Source of the DNA: Clostridium tyrobutyricum DSM 2637 = ATCC 25755 = JCM 11008
GTDB taxonomy: Bacteria > Bacillota > Clostridia > Clostridiales > Clostridiaceae
Length of the DNA stretch: 62,045 nucleotides
Assembly (NCBI RefSeq): GCF_000359585.1
Contig: NZ_APMH01000024.1
Span: 1 to 62,045, forward strand
Direction: 5' to 3'
Made by a program: the position numbers and the translations under genes. The notes below the pieces were generated by a model. It saw nothing but the letters and a program-made list of their open reading frames with translations. It was not told the origin of the DNA and made no database searches. Shown here in pieces: positions 32,020 through 62,045 of this stretch (within the stretch, counting starts at the first letter, position 1; each line of letters starts with the position of its first letter).

Positions 32020-32544
32020 TTAATCTGCTATAAAGAATACGTGATTTCCTATAATTTTTATATTTCGCTTATTTATATCTTTCATCCAAGTTGAAGTAGC
32101 AATTCTAGGATTATAGAAGAATACTGCCTTATTTGTTGGATCTTGCCCTTTTAGTGCTTGAGATACTGCCTTGTAATTGCTTTGGCTAGGTACCACATCT
32201 ATATTTCCGTTTCTAACACATGAAAAGGCGCCGCTTTGTTTAACAACACCTTCTACAGTTTTTGGAAACCTTGGATATGTTAGTCTGTTTAGTATGACGG
32301 ATGCTACAGCAACTTGCCCTTCAAAAGGTTCACCATTACTTTCTGCATATACTACTTTTGCCATAAGATTTACATCATTTTGTGTTATATATAATCTTTG
32401 ATTTGAATAGTTAAATACTTGAACTATTTCCTCATTTCCATTAAAAAGATTAGTATCTTTATTACTTATATCTTTGGCGGATACATTTCCTAATGGAATT
32501 GAAAGTAGTAATAGTAAACTTACAAAACAAAAAAATTTTCTCAA
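32020..32544 (-). CDS. Secreted cell-wall hydrolase, SleB/CwlJ type
   Basis: 174 aa from TTG 32544 after AAGGAGAGG. A signal peptide (FFCFVSLLLLLSIPLGNVSAKD) precedes a Hydrolase_2 domain (about 58-172) with the catalytic Glu in VYAESNGEPFEGQVAVA and later VFFYNPRIATSTWM. The domain hydrolyses peptidoglycan glycan strands. There is no separate peptidoglycan-binding repeat, so it is shorter than full SleB. A c-di-AMP riboswitch directly upstream on the same strand should control it. Confidence 0.88.
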   Translation of the reverse strand: MRKFFCFVSLLLLLSIPLGNVSAKDISNKDTNLFNGNEEIVQVFNYSNQRLYITQNDVNLMAKVVYAESNGEPFEGQVAVASVILNRLTYPRFPKTVEGVVKQSGAFSCVRNGNIDVVPSQSNYKAVSQALKGQDPTNKAVFFYNPRIATSTWMKDINKRNIKIIGNHVFFIAD

Positions 32545-32556
32545 ATTATCCTCTCC

Positions 32557-32672
32557 TTGTTACCTACGGGGTTAGCTGACGGGTTCGGTAAAGGCATAAC
32601 CTACGTAAAATAACGATTCACCCCAATAGTCTTTTTTGGGTTCCCCGCGTTTTTTGTTAAACTTAGGCTAAT
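32557..32672 (-). promoter_or_regulatory. c-di-AMP riboswitch (ydaO-yuaA class)
   Basis: On the minus strand the leader contains GCGGGGAACCC, then TGGGGTGAATC, GTAGG, CTTTACCGAACCCGTCAGCT and AACCCCGTAGG in order, the conserved core of the ydaO class. The ribosome-binding site of the hydrolase gene begins a few bases after the element with no terminator between, so control is probably at translation. Known members shut expression off when c-di-AMP is high. Confidence 0.92.
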
Positions 32673-32831
32673 GATATTATGTCCATTTTATAAAAAAAAA
32701 TACAAATTTTAATATAATTTATTAAAATTTTAGAAATACTTAGCTACCATGATATAAACAATATTAAATAGTGTATAATTATAAACAGGTGAACTTATTT
32801 AGAAAATTAATCATAAAAGGGGGTGAAATAA

Positions 32832-52360: not shown

Positions 52361-52470
52361 TTCTTATCAAGAGAGGTAGAGGGATTGGCCCTATGATACC
52401 CGGCAACCTGAGTAAGTTTATTCAACGGTGCTAATTCCAGCAGGTATATACCTGAAAGATGAGAGAGTAC
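52361..52470 (+). promoter_or_regulatory. SAM-I (S-box) riboswitch 1
   Basis: The core runs CTTATCAAGAGAGG, TAGAGGGA-TTGGCCC, TATGATACCCGGCAACC, GGTGCTAATTCCAGCAGG and GATGAGAG, all S-box landmarks. It is followed at once by an intrinsic terminator, so high S-adenosylmethionine should stop transcription before the sulfur-relay operon that starts near 52.64 kb. Confidence 0.97.
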
Positions 52471-52473
52471 AAT

Positions 52474-52516
52474 AAAAAAGCTTTCTTGTAATTTTAGTCA
52501 GGAAAGCTTTTTTGAA
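52474..52516 (+). terminator. Riboswitch-controlled terminator 1
   Basis: AAAAAAGCTTTC (52474-52485) pairs with GAAAGCTTTTTT (52502-52513). The right arm ends in the T-run. From 52517 to about 52636 there is an AT-rich leader without a further gene. Confidence 0.93.
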
Positions 52517-52636
52517 TTTTAGGTTACTTGATTTTTAGTTGTAATAAAATGATAGTTTGTAAATTACTTTATTAAGTTTTATTTTACAGTCTTTTTACCA
52601 TAATGGTTAAAAGTTTAGGGAAGGTGTGGTTGAAAA

Positions 52637-53797
52637 ATAAATGTCAATTGTAATTGTGACTTATTTAGCAGTCTGAGTACTGAAGGTAAAAGAATATTTA
52701 GTTTACTTCAAAAAAAAGGTTCTATGACAAAAAATGAAATTTCATTTGCAACAAAAATGAAATTGACATCCCTAAACCGTGTAATGAAACCTCTTGAGCA
52801 AAATAATATGGTAATTAAATATCTTATGGGGGATTCTACAGGAGGAAGACGACCTGTATTGTATAATATAAATCTATGTGCCTCATATATAATAGGATTG
52901 GATATATATAATAATTATGTAAAAATTGTATTTAGTAATTTAAAAATTGATATAGTATGTAAGGAAGTATTTAAAATAGAATATAAAGATAATCCTGATA
53001 AGATTACAAGAAAAATATTGGAAACTATAGACAAGATGGTTTTAAATCTAAGTTTTGATTATCTGAGTCTTATTGGTATAGGAATATCAGTTGTTGATGC
53101 TACTGATTTAAAAAATATATCTATAAAAAATATTCTGCAAAAAAAGTTGGATTGTCCAGTTATATTAGAAAACAGAGCAATTTCATCTGTTGTTTTGGAA
53201 TATTTTTATAAATTTAATTGTGCATTTAAAAATATAGGTTATTTTAACTGTGAGTCCAAAATTACAACTGGAATAATCTTATCAGGGAAAATTTTGAGAA
53301 CTTTTAATAGTGGACAAGACGCATTTGAAAATATGATTGTGGATATCAACGAGTGTTTACATAGCTCAAATGGATGTATTCAAACTTATTCATCTACCGA
53401 TGCTTTAGTAAAAAGATTTATTGCCAGAATAAGTAAAGGTGGCACTACAATTATAAATAAATCTTTAAGTAATATAGATTATAAAGATATATGTATTGCA
53501 GCTGAACAAAATGATGATCTTTCAATAAGTATAATAAAAGAAGCAGCAATAGCATTTGGAATAGGATTGATTAATTACATACAATTGCTGGACTTAAAAG
53601 TCGTAATATTAACTGGAGATTTACCCAAAAACTCCAAAATGTTTTATGATATATGTATTAAAATGGTGTCTGAAAAGTTACATTTGGATAAAGGTACAAA
53701 AGTTATTTTTAAAAAGAAAGAATATTTTGCAGAAGATACCGCAGCCATAGGTGCTGCTGCCGTAATAATGGAAAAATATTTAGATAACTATAATTAG
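52637..53797 (+). CDS. ROK-family transcriptional regulator, start codon uncertain
   Basis: The first ATG in frame is 52724 (357 aa), but the open frame extends up to 52634 and the winged-helix pattern GKRIFSLLQKKGSMTKNEIS starts before it, so ATG 52724 would cut the DNA-binding domain. GGAAGGTG (52619-52626) points to initiation around 52637, where the codon is ATA; a CTG lies at 52673. The C-terminal part (about 280 aa) has the ROK fold with SIKEAAIAFGIGLINYIQ, but the sugar-kinase zinc-cysteine cluster is not clear. Located first after the SAM-I switch, it probably controls the sulfur genes. Confidence 0.7.
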   Translation: MNVNCNCDLFSSLSTEGKRIFSLLQKKGSMTKNEISFATKMKLTSLNRVMKPLEQNNMVIKYLMGDSTGGRRPVLYNINLCASYIIGLDIYNNYVKIVFSNLKIDIVCKEVFKIEYKDNPDKITRKILETIDKMVLNLSFDYLSLIGIGISVVDATDLKNISIKNILQKKLDCPVILENRAISSVVLEYFYKFNCAFKNIGYFNCESKITTGIILSGKILRTFNSGQDAFENMIVDINECLHSSNGCIQTYSSTDALVKRFIARISKGGTTIINKSLSNIDYKDICIAAEQNDDLSISIIKEAAIAFGIGLINYIQLLDLKVVILTGDLPKNSKMFYDICIKMVSEKLHLDKGTKVIFKKKEYFAEDTAAIGAAAVIMEKYLDNYN

Positions 53798-53807
53798 GAG
53801 GAAAATT

Positions 53808-54023
53808 ATGAATATAAAAGTAAATGGAGAAGACAAAGATATAAAGGATGGAGTAACAATAACTGAAATTTTGAAAATTGAAAATGTAGAGATGCCAGAT
53901 ATGGTTTCAGTTCAATTAAATGATGAATTTGTAGACAGAGATAAATTTTCTGATACTGCATTAAAAGAAAATGATAAGATAGATTTCTTGTATTTTATGG
54001 GAGGTGGAACTTTTGGACTTTAA
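53808..54023 (+). CDS. ThiS/HcyS-like sulfur-carrier protein with C-terminal extension
   Basis: 71 aa, ubiquitin-like (MNIKVNGEDKDIKDGVTITEIL; later VQLNDEFV and DKIDFLYFMGGG). ThiS and MoaD proteins end in Gly-Gly, the site of thiocarboxylate formation. Here GGG (65-67) is followed by four more residues, TFGL, so the protein must be trimmed first; a JAMM protease is encoded two genes on. TAGGAGG precedes ATG 53808. Not thiamine-linked by context; a methionine/cysteine role is inferred. Confidence 0.88.
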   Translation: MNIKVNGEDKDIKDGVTITEILKIENVEMPDMVSVQLNDEFVDRDKFSDTALKENDKIDFLYFMGGGTFGL

Positions 54024-54843
54024 TGAAGAACAAATAGAAAGATATTCAAGACATATAATATTATCCGAAGTTGGAGTAGAAGGACAGGAAAAACTTTTGA
54101 ATTCCAAGATTCTCGTAATTGGTACTGGTGGATTGGGTGCTCCTGCTGCTATGTATCTGGCTGCTGCCGGTGTAGGAACTATAGGGCTTGTAGATGGAGA
54201 TGTAGTTGATCTTTCTAATCTACAAAGACAGATAATACATCAGACAAAAGATGTAAACAAACCTAAAGTTAAATCAGGAAAAGAAACAATAAATGAATTG
54301 AATCCAGATGTAAATGTAATTACCTACAATGAAATTGCAGATTCTACGAATATAATGGATATTATAAAGGATAAAGATTATGATTTTATAATAGATGGAA
54401 CAGATAATTTTCCAGCAAAATTTCTTATAAATGATGCTTGTGTTCTTGCCAAAAAACCATTCTCACATGGAGGAATAATAAGATTTCAGGGACAGTTAAC
54501 TACATATATACCTGACAATGGAACACCTTGTTATAGATGTATATTTCAATCACCACCACCAGCTGGTGTTGTGCCAACTTGTAGAGAGGCAGGTGTCTTA
54601 GGTGTAATGGGAGGAGTAATAGGATCTCTTCAGGCTACAGAAGCACTCAAATACATTCTAGGCCTTGGAGACAGTTTGGCAGGATATCTTTTAACTTATA
54701 ATGCATTGACTATGCAGTTTAGAAAGATAAAGGTTTCTAAAAATAAAAAATGCGGTATATGCGGTGAACATCCTACTATAACAAATCTTATAGATTATGA
54801 ACAAGCTGCTTGTGATCTGAAAACAGGAAATTTAAAAGGGTGA
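54013..54843 (+). CDS. ThiF/MoeB/HesA-type activating enzyme of the sulfur carrier
   Basis: 276 aa. TTG 54013 is chosen because GGGAGGTGG (53999-54007) sits eight bases upstream and the protein then starts MDFNEEQIERYSRHIILSEVG; GTG 54004 lies inside that site. The ATP loop is GTGGLGAPAAMYLAAAG, with R-motif NLQRQIIH and DGTDNFPAKF. Zinc cysteines occur as CYRC and CGIC; an extra Cys in VPTCREAG may carry the acyl intermediate. It adenylates the carrier C-terminus. It overlaps the carrier gene by 11 bp. Confidence 0.92.
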   Translation: MDFNEEQIERYSRHIILSEVGVEGQEKLLNSKILVIGTGGLGAPAAMYLAAAGVGTIGLVDGDVVDLSNLQRQIIHQTKDVNKPKVKSGKETINELNPDVNVITYNEIADSTNIMDIIKDKDYDFIIDGTDNFPAKFLINDACVLAKKPFSHGGIIRFQGQLTTYIPDNGTPCYRCIFQSPPPAGVVPTCREAGVLGVMGGVIGSLQATEALKYILGLGDSLAGYLLTYNALTMQFRKIKVSKNKKCGICGEHPTITNLIDYEQAACDLKTGNLKG

Positions 54844-54849
54844 TATAAT

Positions 54850-55260
54850 ATGATTTATATAAATAGATTGAAATACGAGAAAATTGTGGATCAGGCAAGA
54901 AGAGAAATTCCTGATGAGTGTTGTGGATATCTAGGAGGCAAAAAATCTGGAGAGGATATTTTTATAAAAAAAGTATATCCTTTGACAAATATAGATCATA
55001 GTAATGAACATTTCTCTATGGATCCAAAAGAACAGTTCAATACTATAAAAACTATAAGAAATGAAGGACTTGTAATGATAGGAAATTATCATTCTCATCC
55101 AGAATCTCCTTCTAGACCATCTGAGGAGGACAAAAGGCTTGCTTTTGATCCAAGCATACTGTATGGAATACTATCACTTGAAAAGGAAGAACCTGTGTTT
55201 AACCTATTTAAAATAGACAGGGACAAAAATGTGGAAAAGCTTAAGTATGAAATTGTTTAA
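54850..55260 (+). CDS. JAMM/MPN metalloprotease, probable carrier-processing enzyme
   Basis: 136 aa. The JAMM zinc motif is complete: Glu23 in PDECCGYLGG, then NYHSHPESPSRPSEED with His81, His83, Ser91 and Asp94. Bacterial members (Mec+ of Mycobacterium, QbsD, HcyD) cut extra residues from or after the Gly-Gly of sulfur-carrier proteins. The tail TFGL of the carrier two genes upstream is the natural substrate here. It follows the activating enzyme by 6 bp. Confidence 0.92.
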   Translation: MIYINRLKYEKIVDQARREIPDECCGYLGGKKSGEDIFIKKVYPLTNIDHSNEHFSMDPKEQFNTIKTIRNEGLVMIGNYHSHPESPSRPSEEDKRLAFDPSILYGILSLEKEEPVFNLFKIDRDKNVEKLKYEIV

Positions 55261-55287
55261 GTAAATTGTTGGGAGTGATTGATATTT

Positions 55288-57606
55288 ATGATAGATATAA
55301 GTCAAGAAAACTATAAAGCTATAGAAGATATAGGAGAAAAGTCAAAGCAGTATGCAGAGGGAAGTATAAATCCTGTAAGATTTAAGGCTTTCAGAGTATC
55401 TATGGGATTTTATGAACAGAGGAAAAAAGAAACTTATATGTTGAGAACTAGAGTGCCGGGTGGAGTAATAAATTTAAAACAATTTCAGGTTATAAGTGAA
55501 CTTGGAAGAAAATATGCTGATGGTAAAGTAAGATTTACTTCAAGACAGGATATACAGTTTCACAGTGTAAATTTAGAGGATGCATATCCAATAATGAAAT
55601 CTCTTATAGAAGTTGGAATAATTACAAAGGGAACAGGTGGAAATACTGTAAGAAACATTGAGTGTTCACCACTTTCAGGGGTTTCATTAGATGATGTGTT
55701 TGATGTAACACCTTATATGAAGGCTGCTACCAATTATTTAATAAAAGATCCTACCACAATGAATATGCCAAGAAAGTATAAAATAGCTTTTTCAAATAGT
55801 GGAGTTGATACTGGCAATGCTACAATTTCTGATCTTGGATTCATAGCTAAGATTGTAGATGGAAAAAGAGGTTTTGAACTGTATGGTGGTGGTGGATTTG
55901 GTGGAAGTCCACAGGTATCTTTAAAACTTAAAGACTTCATACCTGACAAAGATATTTTATATTATATTCAGGGCATGAAGAACCTGTTTGAAGCTGAAGG
56001 AGATAGAACCAACAAGCATAAGGCACGAATAAGATTTATAGTTAAAAGACTTGGAAAAGAAAAGTTTATTGAAAGATTTAATGAAGAAGTAAATAAATTA
56101 AAAGCAGAGTCAAAACTTGATATAAATGTAAATCCGGATGAATTTATAGTAAATAAATCAGCTGAAATAGTAGAAAAAGCTGAAGTGTCAAAAGATCTTG
56201 AAAATATATTGTTCCCACAAAAGCAAGCAGGGTATTATTCCGTTTACGTACACCCACAAAGTGGAAATTTAAATGTAGATAATCTTGACAAAGTACTTAA
56301 TTTTATTGACAAACTTAACTATGATATATCCATAAGAACAACTAATACTCAGGGCTTTATTGTAAGAGATTTAAAAGAAAATGATGCCCAAAAACTACTT
56401 GATATAATCAAAGAATTTACGTCTATATATAATATAGATAATTCTTTAACTTGTGTAGGTGCGTCAACATGCCAGCTTGGCCTTTGCCTTTCACAAAATC
56501 TTTTGATAGGAATAAAAGCTGAGTTTAAATCTGTTGACAAAAATGTGAAAGAAGCCCTTCCAAGATTATATATATCAGGATGTCCTAATTCATGTGCTCA
56601 GCATGAAAAAGGTCAGATAGGTTTGCACGGAAGAGCAAAAAGAACACAAAATGGCCTTATACCAATGTATTCTGTATCCTTTGGAGGAAGAATAGGCTCT
56701 GGTGGAGCAAAAATGGGCGAAGAGTACGGAGATATTCCAGCAAAGAAGATACCTGAATTTCTACATAAACTAGCATATCTAAAAGCGGATTCAGGTTATG
56801 AAGACTTTTATGAATTCTTAGATAATAAGAATGATGATATAAAAGAATTAGTTAGTAAATATACTGATATAGAGAAATTTGCAGGGGATTCAGATATTTA
56901 TTTTGATTTTGGTTCATGTGAGCGATTTTCATTAAAAGGCAGAGGACCTGGGGAATGCAGCAGCGGAGTAATGGATGTAATCAAACTGGATTTATCAAAT
57001 GCAGGATCTTCACTTGAAAAATACAAACAGACTAAAAAGGATTCAGATTTGTATTCTTCAGCAGTTTCCTCAGCGAGAACACTTCTAGTATTAAGAGGAG
57101 TAGATACGAATAAGGATAGAGAGATATTCAAAGAATTTGAAAAGAATTTTGTGGATCCTGGCTATGTAAAGTCATCAATTAAGAAGTTGTTTGAAAGCCT
57201 TATAGATTATAAACTTGGGGATTTAGCTAATATATCTGATAAATTGCCTGAAGTTGAATATTTGTTTAAAAAAGTAGAAGCTATGTACAAATCACTGGAC
57301 GGAAAACTTGAAATAACACTTCCCAAAGAAGAAGTTGTAGATTCTAAAGCTGATGATAAAGAAGATAATAATGAAAAAGACGGATATAAGGTTATTGATT
57401 TTAGAGGGGTAAAATGTCCTATAAATTTTGTAAAAGTCAAAATTGAGCTATCCAAGATTAAATCTGGTGAAAAAAGGGGATTTTATCTAGATGATGGAGA
57501 TCCAATAAAAAATGTTCCCGAAAGTGTTAGAAAAGAGGGTCATAAAATAATTTCAATAGATACAAATTATGAAGGCTATAATTTGCTTGTTGTAGAGAAA
57601 AAATAG
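55288..57606 (+). CDS. Siroheme sulfite/nitrite reductase fused to a TusA domain
   Basis: 772 aa from ATG 55288 (GGGAGTG ten bases up; TTG 55279 is an alternative). Residues 1-500 are a siroheme [4Fe-4S] reductase with two ferredoxin-like halves and cluster cysteines C389, C395, C432 and C436 (TCVGASTC and GCPNSC). Residues about 590-690 are a helical, HEPN-like or linker region. Residues 700-772 form a TusA/SirA domain with the sulfur-carrying Cys710 in RGVKCPINFVKVK. The fusion suggests sulfide made at siroheme is passed as persulfide to the adjacent carrier system. Assimilatory sulfite reduction is inferred from neighbours. Confidence 0.9.
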   Translation: MIDISQENYKAIEDIGEKSKQYAEGSINPVRFKAFRVSMGFYEQRKKETYMLRTRVPGGVINLKQFQVISELGRKYADGKVRFTSRQDIQFHSVNLEDAYPIMKSLIEVGIITKGTGGNTVRNIECSPLSGVSLDDVFDVTPYMKAATNYLIKDPTTMNMPRKYKIAFSNSGVDTGNATISDLGFIAKIVDGKRGFELYGGGGFGGSPQVSLKLKDFIPDKDILYYIQGMKNLFEAEGDRTNKHKARIRFIVKRLGKEKFIERFNEEVNKLKAESKLDINVNPDEFIVNKSAEIVEKAEVSKDLENILFPQKQAGYYSVYVHPQSGNLNVDNLDKVLNFIDKLNYDISIRTTNTQGFIVRDLKENDAQKLLDIIKEFTSIYNIDNSLTCVGASTCQLGLCLSQNLLIGIKAEFKSVDKNVKEALPRLYISGCPNSCAQHEKGQIGLHGRAKRTQNGLIPMYSVSFGGRIGSGGAKMGEEYGDIPAKKIPEFLHKLAYLKADSGYEDFYEFLDNKNDDIKELVSKYTDIEKFAGDSDIYFDFGSCERFSLKGRGPGECSSGVMDVIKLDLSNAGSSLEKYKQTKKDSDLYSSAVSSARTLLVLRGVDTNKDREIFKEFEKNFVDPGYVKSSIKKLFESLIDYKLGDLANISDKLPEVEYLFKKVEAMYKSLDGKLEITLPKEEVVDSKADDKEDNNEKDGYKVIDFRGVKCPINFVKVKIELSKIKSGEKRGFYLDDGDPIKNVPESVRKEGHKIISIDTNYEGYNLLVVEKK

Positions 57607-57671
57607 AAGTTAGTTGAGAAAGATGGAATAAATTTAATTTGTTCCATCTTTAAATAGATTGAGGTGAAAAT

Positions 57672-58901
57672 ATGAAGTTTAATACTAAACTTATACATGG
57701 AAATGCAAGATTGGATGGAACAGGTGCTACTAATACTCCAGTATATCTTTCTAATGCATATGCTCACACAAGTGCAGAAAAACTTGAAAAGATATTTCAG
57801 GGAAAGGATATGGGGTATGCATATACTAGAATATCAAATCCTACAGTTACTTCTTTTGAAAGAAGAATTGCAAGTATAGAAAATGGTATGGTTGCTACAT
57901 CTGCATCATCTGGAATGAGTGCTATATATCTTGCTGTAATGAATATGGTAGAAAGTGGAGACGAAATAGTTTCCTCAAGCGGTTTATATGGAGGCACTTA
58001 TACTCTTATGAGAAATTTAAAATCCATTGGGGTAAAAGTTCATTTTCTTGAAAATATAAATCCGGATACTTTGAAATCCGTGATAAATAAAAAAACAAAA
58101 TTGGTTTTTGCAGAAACTATTGGAAATCCAAGACTTGATGTCTTGGATATAGGAGCTGTATCAAAATTCTGTAAAGATAATAATATTGTTCTTATTATAG
58201 ATTCCACAATGACCACTCCTTATCTCATAAAACCACTGGAATATGGTGCTGATATTGTAATACATTCTACTTCTAAGTATATAAATGGAACTTCTAATTC
58301 TATAGGTGGAATTATAGTAGATAGTGGAAGCAGCAAGTATACAGATCCACGATACGAAAACTTTTTGCCTTATACAAAGAAATATGGTAAAATGGCGTTT
58401 ACTGCTAAGTTAAAAGATACAATAGGTAGAGATGTTGGACCGGCACTTTCACCTTTTAATGCATTTTTAAATCTTACAGGAGTGGAAACACTATCTCTTA
58501 GAATGAAAGAGCACTGTAAAAATGCACTGGGCATTGCTAAATATTTAAGTAATAATGATAAGATAGTGGATGTAAACTATCCAGGACTTGAGAGCTCAAG
58601 GTATTATGATTTAGCTCAAAAGTATTACAAAAATGGATCTGGTGGCATACTAACATTTAGACTTGGAAGTAAAGAAAATGCATTTAAATTTTTGAACAAT
58701 TTAAAATTGATATTGGATCTTACAAATATAGGTGATACTAAATCAATTATAATTCATCCTTCATCTACAATATGTTCTAATAATACTGATGAAGAAAAGC
58801 GACAGATGGGAGTATATGAAGATCTTTTAAGATTATCTGTAGGTATAGAGGATGTGGAAGATATAATAGCAGATATTGACAGCGCTTTGAAAGAACTTTA
58901 A
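57672..58901 (+). CDS. MetY-like PLP enzyme of the sulfur-carrier operon
   Basis: 409 aa of the Cys/Met-metabolism PLP family. The Schiff-base lysine is Lys202 in HSTSKYINGTSNSIGG; the PLP-phosphate residues are in YAYTRISNPT and ASSGMSAIYLA. It matches O-acetylhomoserine sulfhydrylases but is distinctly different from the second copy at 61.4 kb, for example STSKYINGT in place of SATKFIGGH. In Wolinella MetY takes sulfur from the HcyS thiocarboxylate to make homocysteine. That role is inferred here. A TAGATTGAGGTG site precedes ATG 57672. Confidence 0.86.
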   Translation: MKFNTKLIHGNARLDGTGATNTPVYLSNAYAHTSAEKLEKIFQGKDMGYAYTRISNPTVTSFERRIASIENGMVATSASSGMSAIYLAVMNMVESGDEIVSSSGLYGGTYTLMRNLKSIGVKVHFLENINPDTLKSVINKKTKLVFAETIGNPRLDVLDIGAVSKFCKDNNIVLIIDSTMTTPYLIKPLEYGADIVIHSTSKYINGTSNSIGGIIVDSGSSKYTDPRYENFLPYTKKYGKMAFTAKLKDTIGRDVGPALSPFNAFLNLTGVETLSLRMKEHCKNALGIAKYLSNNDKIVDVNYPGLESSRYYDLAQKYYKNGSGGILTFRLGSKENAFKFLNNLKLILDLTNIGDTKSIIIHPSSTICSNNTDEEKRQMGVYEDLLRLSVGIEDVEDIIADIDSALKEL

Positions 58902-61152: not shown

Positions 61153-61262
61153 TTCTTATCAAGAGAGGCGGAGGGACTGGCCCTATGATGCCCGGCAACC
61201 TGAATATAGAATATTCATTGGTGCTAATTCCAGCAGGGGAAACCTGATAGATGAGATACAAG
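61153..61262 (+). promoter_or_regulatory. SAM-I (S-box) riboswitch 2
   Basis: The core CTTATCAAGAGAGG, GGAGGGACTGGCCC, TATGATGCCCGGCAACC, GGTGCTAATTCCAGCAGG and GATGAGA is nearly identical to riboswitch 1 at 52361, differing mainly in the P3 and P4 arms. It controls the metY gene that follows. Confidence 0.97.

Positions 61263-61336: not shown

Positions 61337-62045
<709 letters not shown>

Follow-up and report, generated by a model that had tools for sequence, protein, structure and literature searches.

A SAM-I-led operon of Clostridium tyrobutyricum predicted to make homocysteine through a protein thiocarboxylate

Results

The window considered here is the whole stretch of DNA analysed, the 62,045-nucleotide contig NZ_APMH01000024.1 of Clostridium tyrobutyricum DSM 2637 (assembly GCF_000359585.1). 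At positions 52,361 to 58,901 it carries what we consider, with high confidence from comparative evidence, to be an operon repressed by S-adenosylmethionine (SAM) for the synthesis of homocysteine by a protein-thiocarboxylate route. The operon is a further case of the known Wolinella-type pathway, since it appears to combine a beta-grasp carrier with a tail behind its Gly-Gly end, an adjacent JAMM protease, an adjacent E1-like enzyme, a linked siroheme reductase and a MetY related to that of Wolinella. Its less known aspects may be the control by an RNA switch, the recurring ROK partner and the signs that the sulfite reductase hands its sulfur on directly.

All genes of the operon lie on the + strand, and the spacing between them ranges from an 11-nt overlap to 65 nt. 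A first-pass annotation had listed a SAM-I riboswitch, a ROK regulator, a carrier, an E1 enzyme, a JAMM protein, a siroheme reductase (SiR) fused to TusA and a MetY-like enzyme, all in one direction with tight spacing, and Rfam and Pfam matches together with the coordinates bear this out. Its assignment of the genes to HcyS, HcyF, HcyD and MetY is likewise supported by the motifs, the gene order, the grouping of the MetY with that of Wolinella and the Wolinella locus itself. The putative sulfur carrier HcyS (53808..54023, +; PF02597, TIGR01683) is ThiS-like, ends in YFMGGG-TFGL and is 54% identical to the Wolinella carrier. Its gene is overlapped by 11 nt by that of HcyF (54013..54843, +; PF00899), an E1-like adenylyltransferase with two CxxC pairs and a VPTCREAG cysteine that is 56% identical to Wolinella HcyF and whose start is probably the TTG at 54013 rather than the GTG at 54004. 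HcyD (54850..55260, +; PF14464), a JAMM metalloprotease with the motif HSHx7SxxD, is the only match to PF14464 (Prok-JAB) in the genome. It is followed by Sir, the siroheme reductase with TusA (55288..57606, +; PF03460, PF01077, PF01206), and by a MetY-like enzyme of the hcy-linked clade (57672..58901, +; PF01053 and tree). The parts, their order and motifs, the clade membership and the co-occurrence described below can be read from the sequences themselves.

Carriers in other loci were sought by BLAST with the window's carrier. All 46 SiR-linked carriers end in Y[FY]MGGG followed by at least one residue (four in 19 of them), a count that refers to detected carriers only because BLAST found none in several hcy loci, e.g. 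L087, L095, L097 and L110. Among the 46 tails, one with 104 residues certainly comes from a run-on frame, and the tails with 10 and 14 residues may have the same origin. Unlinked ThiS-like proteins, namely two in the same loci and the other ThiS of the genome, end in GG or GGG. The metal-site motif H[ST]Hx7-9SxxD is kept in 53 of 53 detected HcyD proteins. The reading of the four-residue tail as a conserved protease signal was rejected as confounded within the window's family by apparent translational coupling, since in the DNA of the window (54000-54030) and of 19/19 relatives (L222-L240) the start of hcyF overlaps with the codons of the tail, and the glycine codons of the carrier resemble an hcyF ribosome (Shine-Dalgarno) site. 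At another locus, L038, a ThiS-like carrier of 65 amino acids ending CFMGGGA adjoins an unfused siroheme reductase, and neither hcyF nor hcyD is present within 1.5 kb.

In a 59-row tree, obtained after five rows had been dropped from an earlier 64-row tree with long branches, 48 MetYs, of which nearly all belong to hcy loci and one is Wolinella's (3RI6), are set apart by a branch (95/90) from eight canonical MetYs, which group at 97/97, and from the three outgroup rows. The clade also has a characteristic segment behind the lysine that binds pyridoxal phosphate (window residues 216-261), which measures 43-46 residues in 44 of the 46 hcy-labelled rows (44 in Wolinella), the remaining two, with 24, being cystathionine-synthase-like. 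The segment is longer in the canonical rows (54, 54, 55 and 64; n=4), measures 55 and 60 in the genome's two other MetYs, and ranges from 23 to 61 in nine unlinked MetY rows. We infer that the shorter segment would give the hcy-clade MetY a wider substrate mouth.

Sir consists of a ferredoxin/NirA-type siroheme reductase, a HEPN-like helical domain and a TusA domain with CPIN, according to Pfam, an AlphaFold model and structure comparison. PF01206 was matched in 30 of 30 fusions and a structure match of the model backs the TusA domain. The typical motif of TusA is CPxP. The Sir domain is a TusA fold by Pfam but not a typical TusA, because CPxN (CP[MLI]N), found in all 78 fusions, takes the place of CPxP. 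Across the 30 aligned fusions the siroheme/[4Fe-4S] cysteines C389, C395, C432 and C436 are invariant, as are Cys557 and Cys710.

In a comparison of gene order, each of the 20 Sir fusions of the window's family (that of the window and 19 others) has hcyD and hcyF beside it, versus none of ten unfused kin (Fisher 3e-8). In the H. saguini family hcyD stood beside five of the seven fusions examined versus none of nine unfused (Fisher 0.005). Both tests ignore kinship, and related genomes are not independent. All 33 unfused kin examined (10/10 in the window's family, 9/9 and 14/14) lack the TusA extension, and all 33 lack hcyF and hcyD within 1.5 kb, including L038 with its carrier-like gene. Named fused SiRs were scored where the upstream sequence reached 1.5 kb or more (10 further loci, being too short, were left out); of these, 50/68 have a co-directional hcyF or hcyD no farther than 3 kb away, a proportion that rules out a strict tie of TusA to the hcy genes. 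In three of the 80 named loci (L113, L131 and L156) the JAMM protein precedes SiR-TusA in a single fused protein, and this arrangement suggests joint action of the protease, the reductase and TusA.

The named loci are the best 80 from a scan of named genomes that gave at least 498 relatives among 588 candidate stretches. By their record titles they come from Planctomycetota, Armatimonadota, Actinomycetota, Chloroflexota, Lentisphaerota, Verrucomicrobiota and others, many being metagenome-assembled, and the hcy cluster also occurs in Clostridiaceae and Halanaerobiales. The closest named locus among the matches listed is that of Clostridium algifaecis, with a Sir 78-79% identical. In a sample of 398 genomes from across the phylum, 33 had a match to Sir at 1e-20, and besides the window's genome 13 of these hold a full-length single-frame fusion; 12 of the 13 have hcyF, and L060 is without it (stretches of 15-17.5 kb). 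Within the window's family the full-length fusion was found in 20/206 genomes, including 9 of the 13 of the genus.

The operon is headed by a SAM-I (S-box) riboswitch aptamer (52361..52465, +; Rfam RF00162, 94.6 bits against a gathering score of 44.4). On its 3' side the RNA fold of 52361-52525 (-46.3 kcal/mol, z -3.2) forms a terminator-like hairpin with a T run (52473..52514, +), so that both components expected of an S-box leader are present and SAM binding is predicted. This hairpin, of 16 pairs, was not among the matches of a pattern scan because the loop limit of the scan was 8 and its loop is 10. A promoter scan gave 57 sites versus 56.9 expected and hence no evidence for a promoter.

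The next gene encodes a ROK-family regulator (52724..53797, +; PF00480, 5e-18) that is 45% identical to the ROK protein of C. algifaecis. An open frame homologous to its kin extends upstream of the first ATG, at about 52634-52723, and contains no ATG, GTG or TTG start, which could mean an unusual start codon, a frameshifted gene or an error in sequencing. Regulation was surveyed in the window and in 19 fetched upstream stretches of 7 kb from its family. SAM-I at the gathering score heads 10 of the 20 operons, namely all nine of the genus and L235 outside it, and a ROK gene flanks 13 of the 20 (eight upstream in line, five divergent). Since a ROK gene is present at L230, L231, L237, L238 and L240, where SAM-I was not found, the ROK protein is probably an independent regulator. 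Among the papers that literature searches listed, none describes control of this operon by SAM-I and ROK; one of the searches was blunt (ThiS also matches 'this'), so that absence from print is not shown. The genome has a second ROK paralogue on contig C13 (L078:6594-7817), which shares 35% identity with that of the operon and adjoins SAM-I and a NifH-like gene. In C. luticellarii a relative of this paralogue (53% identical) is flanked by a NifH-like gene on one side and the hcy operon on the other, and together the two suggest a family of sulfur-related ROK regulators.

Discussion

We infer the catalytic steps in the organism, the action of the switch, the relay over TusA and the role of the ROK protein from these observations. 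In the proposed scheme, HcyD would remove the TFGL tail of HcyS, and HcyF with ATP would adenylate the Gly-Gly end thus exposed. Sulfite would be reduced by Sir, probably with electrons from ferredoxin, and the sulfur would pass to an HcyS thiocarboxylate and then, by means of the dedicated MetY, to O-acetylhomoserine, after which HcyD would release homocysteine. On its way to the carrier the sulfur would travel over the TusA domain, possibly over Cys557, rather than solely as free sulfide. At high SAM, transcription would stop at the leader hairpin.

The sulfite could derive from sulfate through a separate operon on contig C1, also led by SAM-I, which encodes an APS kinase (298 bits against a cut-off of 163), an AprA-type APS reductase (961 against 557), an AprB-like ferredoxin (below cut-off), an ABC transporter, CysD and CysN (transporter and CysN by reading). 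Genes of the sulfate operon directly follow metY in C. akagii, C. intestinale and C. acidisoli. An excerpt of PMC5640608 describes C. ljungdahlii as unable to assimilate sulfate. Contig C51 of C. tyrobutyricum holds MetA- and MetH-like genes with SAM-I elements (by reading of open frames), and the genome search listed 15 SAM-I elements in all.

Several observations weigh against this homocysteine scheme or parts of it. Eighteen of the 68 testable named SiR-TusA fusions have no hcyF or hcyD within 3 kb. Of these misses, L097, L101 and L103 have hcy genes about 3.5 kb downstream, L116 about 4.6 kb upstream and L123 an hcyF about 7 kb upstream, and several others adjoin cysK. In the H. saguini family two of seven fusions lack an adjoining hcyD, four of the five with hcyD show no nearby hcyF or hcyS (the exception being Wolinella), and no JAMM match was found in H. 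saguini. The 64-row MetY tree has weak deep forks and requires 5 and 3 changes for the two groups labelled hcy. The best PDB sequence match of the window's MetY is the canonical 8SF5 (374 bits) versus 292 bits for 3RI6, which was also not among the 50 rows listed in the structure comparison of the MetY model. Finally, the genome also has AsrABC-like genes (by reading), CysK and another MetY.

The alternative that fares best, to which we give close to an even chance, keeps the pathway and lets Sir deliver free sulfide, with TusA being structural or serving another acceptor, e.g. in tRNA thiolation. Consistent with it, the published Wolinella scheme is said to have the bisulfide from Sir attack the acyl-adenylate. 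SiR-TusA is moreover found beside cysK with neither hcyF nor hcyD in the fetched stretch (L135, L141, L147 and L148), and H. saguini has its fusion without a JAMM match. Given the AsrABC-like genes, a second NirA-like reductase, CysK and mccAB-like genes (the last by reading) in the genome, free sulfide is probably available to the organism as well. What argues against this alternative is the invariance of Cys557 and Cys710 in the aligned fusions and the lack of the extension in all 33 unfused kin examined, none of which has hcyF or hcyD within 1.5 kb. Three of the four cysK-linked fusions just named have CPLNY instead of CPxNF, and loci of this type are possibly a cysteine-only variant of the relay.

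The opposite proposal, of full channelling, is one that we advance tentatively and regard as possible rather than probable. According to it, the SiR-HEPN-TusA protein would channel siroheme-bound sulfur over Cys557 and Cys710 to the carrier activated by HcyF, the JAMM protein would dock on this complex (as the JAMM::SiR::TusA fusions may illustrate) and the short-segment MetY clade would take the carrier. Sulfite would thereby be turned into homocysteine with no free sulfide on the way, in roughly a dozen phyla as judged from record titles (many of the records being metagenome-assembled), and in Clostridiaceae the ROK protein would have been recruited as a sulfur regulator. Transfer without free sulfide had also been proposed in the first-pass annotation; it is conjectural, and the genome has other routes to sulfide.

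It is unlikely that the operon chiefly makes cysteine or a general protein-bound pool of sulfur, with homocysteine as one of several outputs. This alternative draws on the 37 hcy loci that are well covered (at least 6 kb upstream and at least 4 kb downstream), of which 21 have cysK, 32 have MetY, 17 have both and 36 have at least one of the two on the same strand at a distance of no more than 6 kb; the window's operon, with no cysK, a SAM switch in front and MetY at its end, speaks against it. A misread thiamine operon is highly improbable, since, although NCBIfam calls the carrier ThiS (64.2 bits against a cut-off of 37.45), this carrier is tailed, no thi genes adjoin it, SAM-I and MetY do not fit thiamine, and a separate tail-less thiS stands on contig C22 with neighbours read as thiG, thiH and thiE. 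No thiF was seen in that C22 cluster (L076:8513-11321) of thiS and then putative thiG, thiH and thiE, and the one other E1 found in the genome is TcdA-like by reading, so HcyF (54013-54843) may also serve ThiS.

Other sulfur-related elements lie outside the operon. A second SAM-I riboswitch (61153..61257, +; RF00162, 89.6 bits), 2.2 kb past the operon, precedes another MetY (61358..62044, +; NF006096, TIGR01326), which is cut by the window end, canonical by NCBIfam and itself not in the tree. Contig C29 (L071:4606-8721, L072:400-9953) holds NifB and NifH above cut-off, nitrogenase-like NifD/K below cut-off, four SAM-I elements and two further MetY paralogues. This set resembles methylthio-alkane reductase systems and would represent further SAM-controlled scavenging of sulfur. 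Elsewhere in the window a cyclic di-AMP riboswitch (32546-32679, - strand) stands ahead of a putative cell-wall hydrolase gene (32020-32544, by reading).

The recurrence of the same cluster with its own MetY clade over a wide range means that the Wolinella pathway is no curiosity. It also isolates the question of whether sulfur from sulfite is channelled over TusA to the carrier or leaves as sulfide. In addition, the standard family model names the carrier ThiS, which can mislead pathway prediction.

Comparison with known systems

Compared with TusA/SirA relay proteins, the window's domain differs in its fusion to SiR via the HEPN-like domain and in CPxN, not CPxP. The CysO/Mec+/CysM system of Mycobacterium uses a carrier thiocarboxylate, trimming by a JAMM protein and CysM as acceptor, and its product is cysteine. 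The window's operon shares the carrier thiocarboxylate and the JAMM trimming, both as predictions, and differs in lacking CysM/CysK; the best CysK match of the genome is on contig C2, and a CysO/Mec+ reading was set aside for want of a linked CysM/CysK.

The closest known system is the HcyS/HcyF/HcyD/Sir/MetY pathway of Wolinella succinogenes, reportedly described by Krishnamoorthy and Begley in 2011. A gene of genome G405 matches PDB 3RI6 (W. succinogenes MetY) at 100% in two pieces (1-270 and 272-403), and two fetched stretches meet inside this gene. On the strand opposite to metY, this locus carries CysD, CysN, a carrier ending YFMGGGA, HcyF, HcyD and a 764-amino-acid Sir that aligns with residues 17-771 of the window's Sir, TusA included. 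The order hcyS-hcyF-hcyD-sir::tusA, a carrier tail after Gly-Gly and the MetY clade are thus common to both. The in-line reductase with TusA, which the first-pass annotation had taken as distinctive, therefore loses that status, and a clostridial invention of the fusion is ruled out, as Wolinella has the same fusion beside hcyD. The differences are a tail of four residues in the window versus a single alanine, metY at the end of the operon versus nearby on the other strand, and cysDN on another contig versus directly beside hcyS, and the window's operon has in addition the SAM-I leader and the ROK gene. The protein thiocarboxylate pathway is discussed, with citation of the 2011 Wolinella study, in an excerpt of PMC5764234.

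The same operon type already appears in row 4e of PMC1779556 (Iyer, Burroughs and Aravind 2006), which lists low-GC Gram-positives and always includes SirA (TusA-type), and the accompanying passage suggests that sulfur from sulfate or sulfite ends on a ThiS/MoaD-like protein. Shared with that row are the ThiS/MoaD-like protein, an E1 without rhodanese, JAB, SirA, sulfite reductase and O-acetylhomoserine sulfhydrylase. Unlike the window, the row as given there mentions no riboswitch, ROK or SiR-TusA fusion, and it has a ThiS-sulfite reductase fusion in two actinobacteria. The operon class was thus on record in 2006, low-GC Gram-positives included. The pairing with SAM-I and ROK, which the first-pass annotation had called little described in a Clostridium, is borne out and is seen repeatedly in the window's family.

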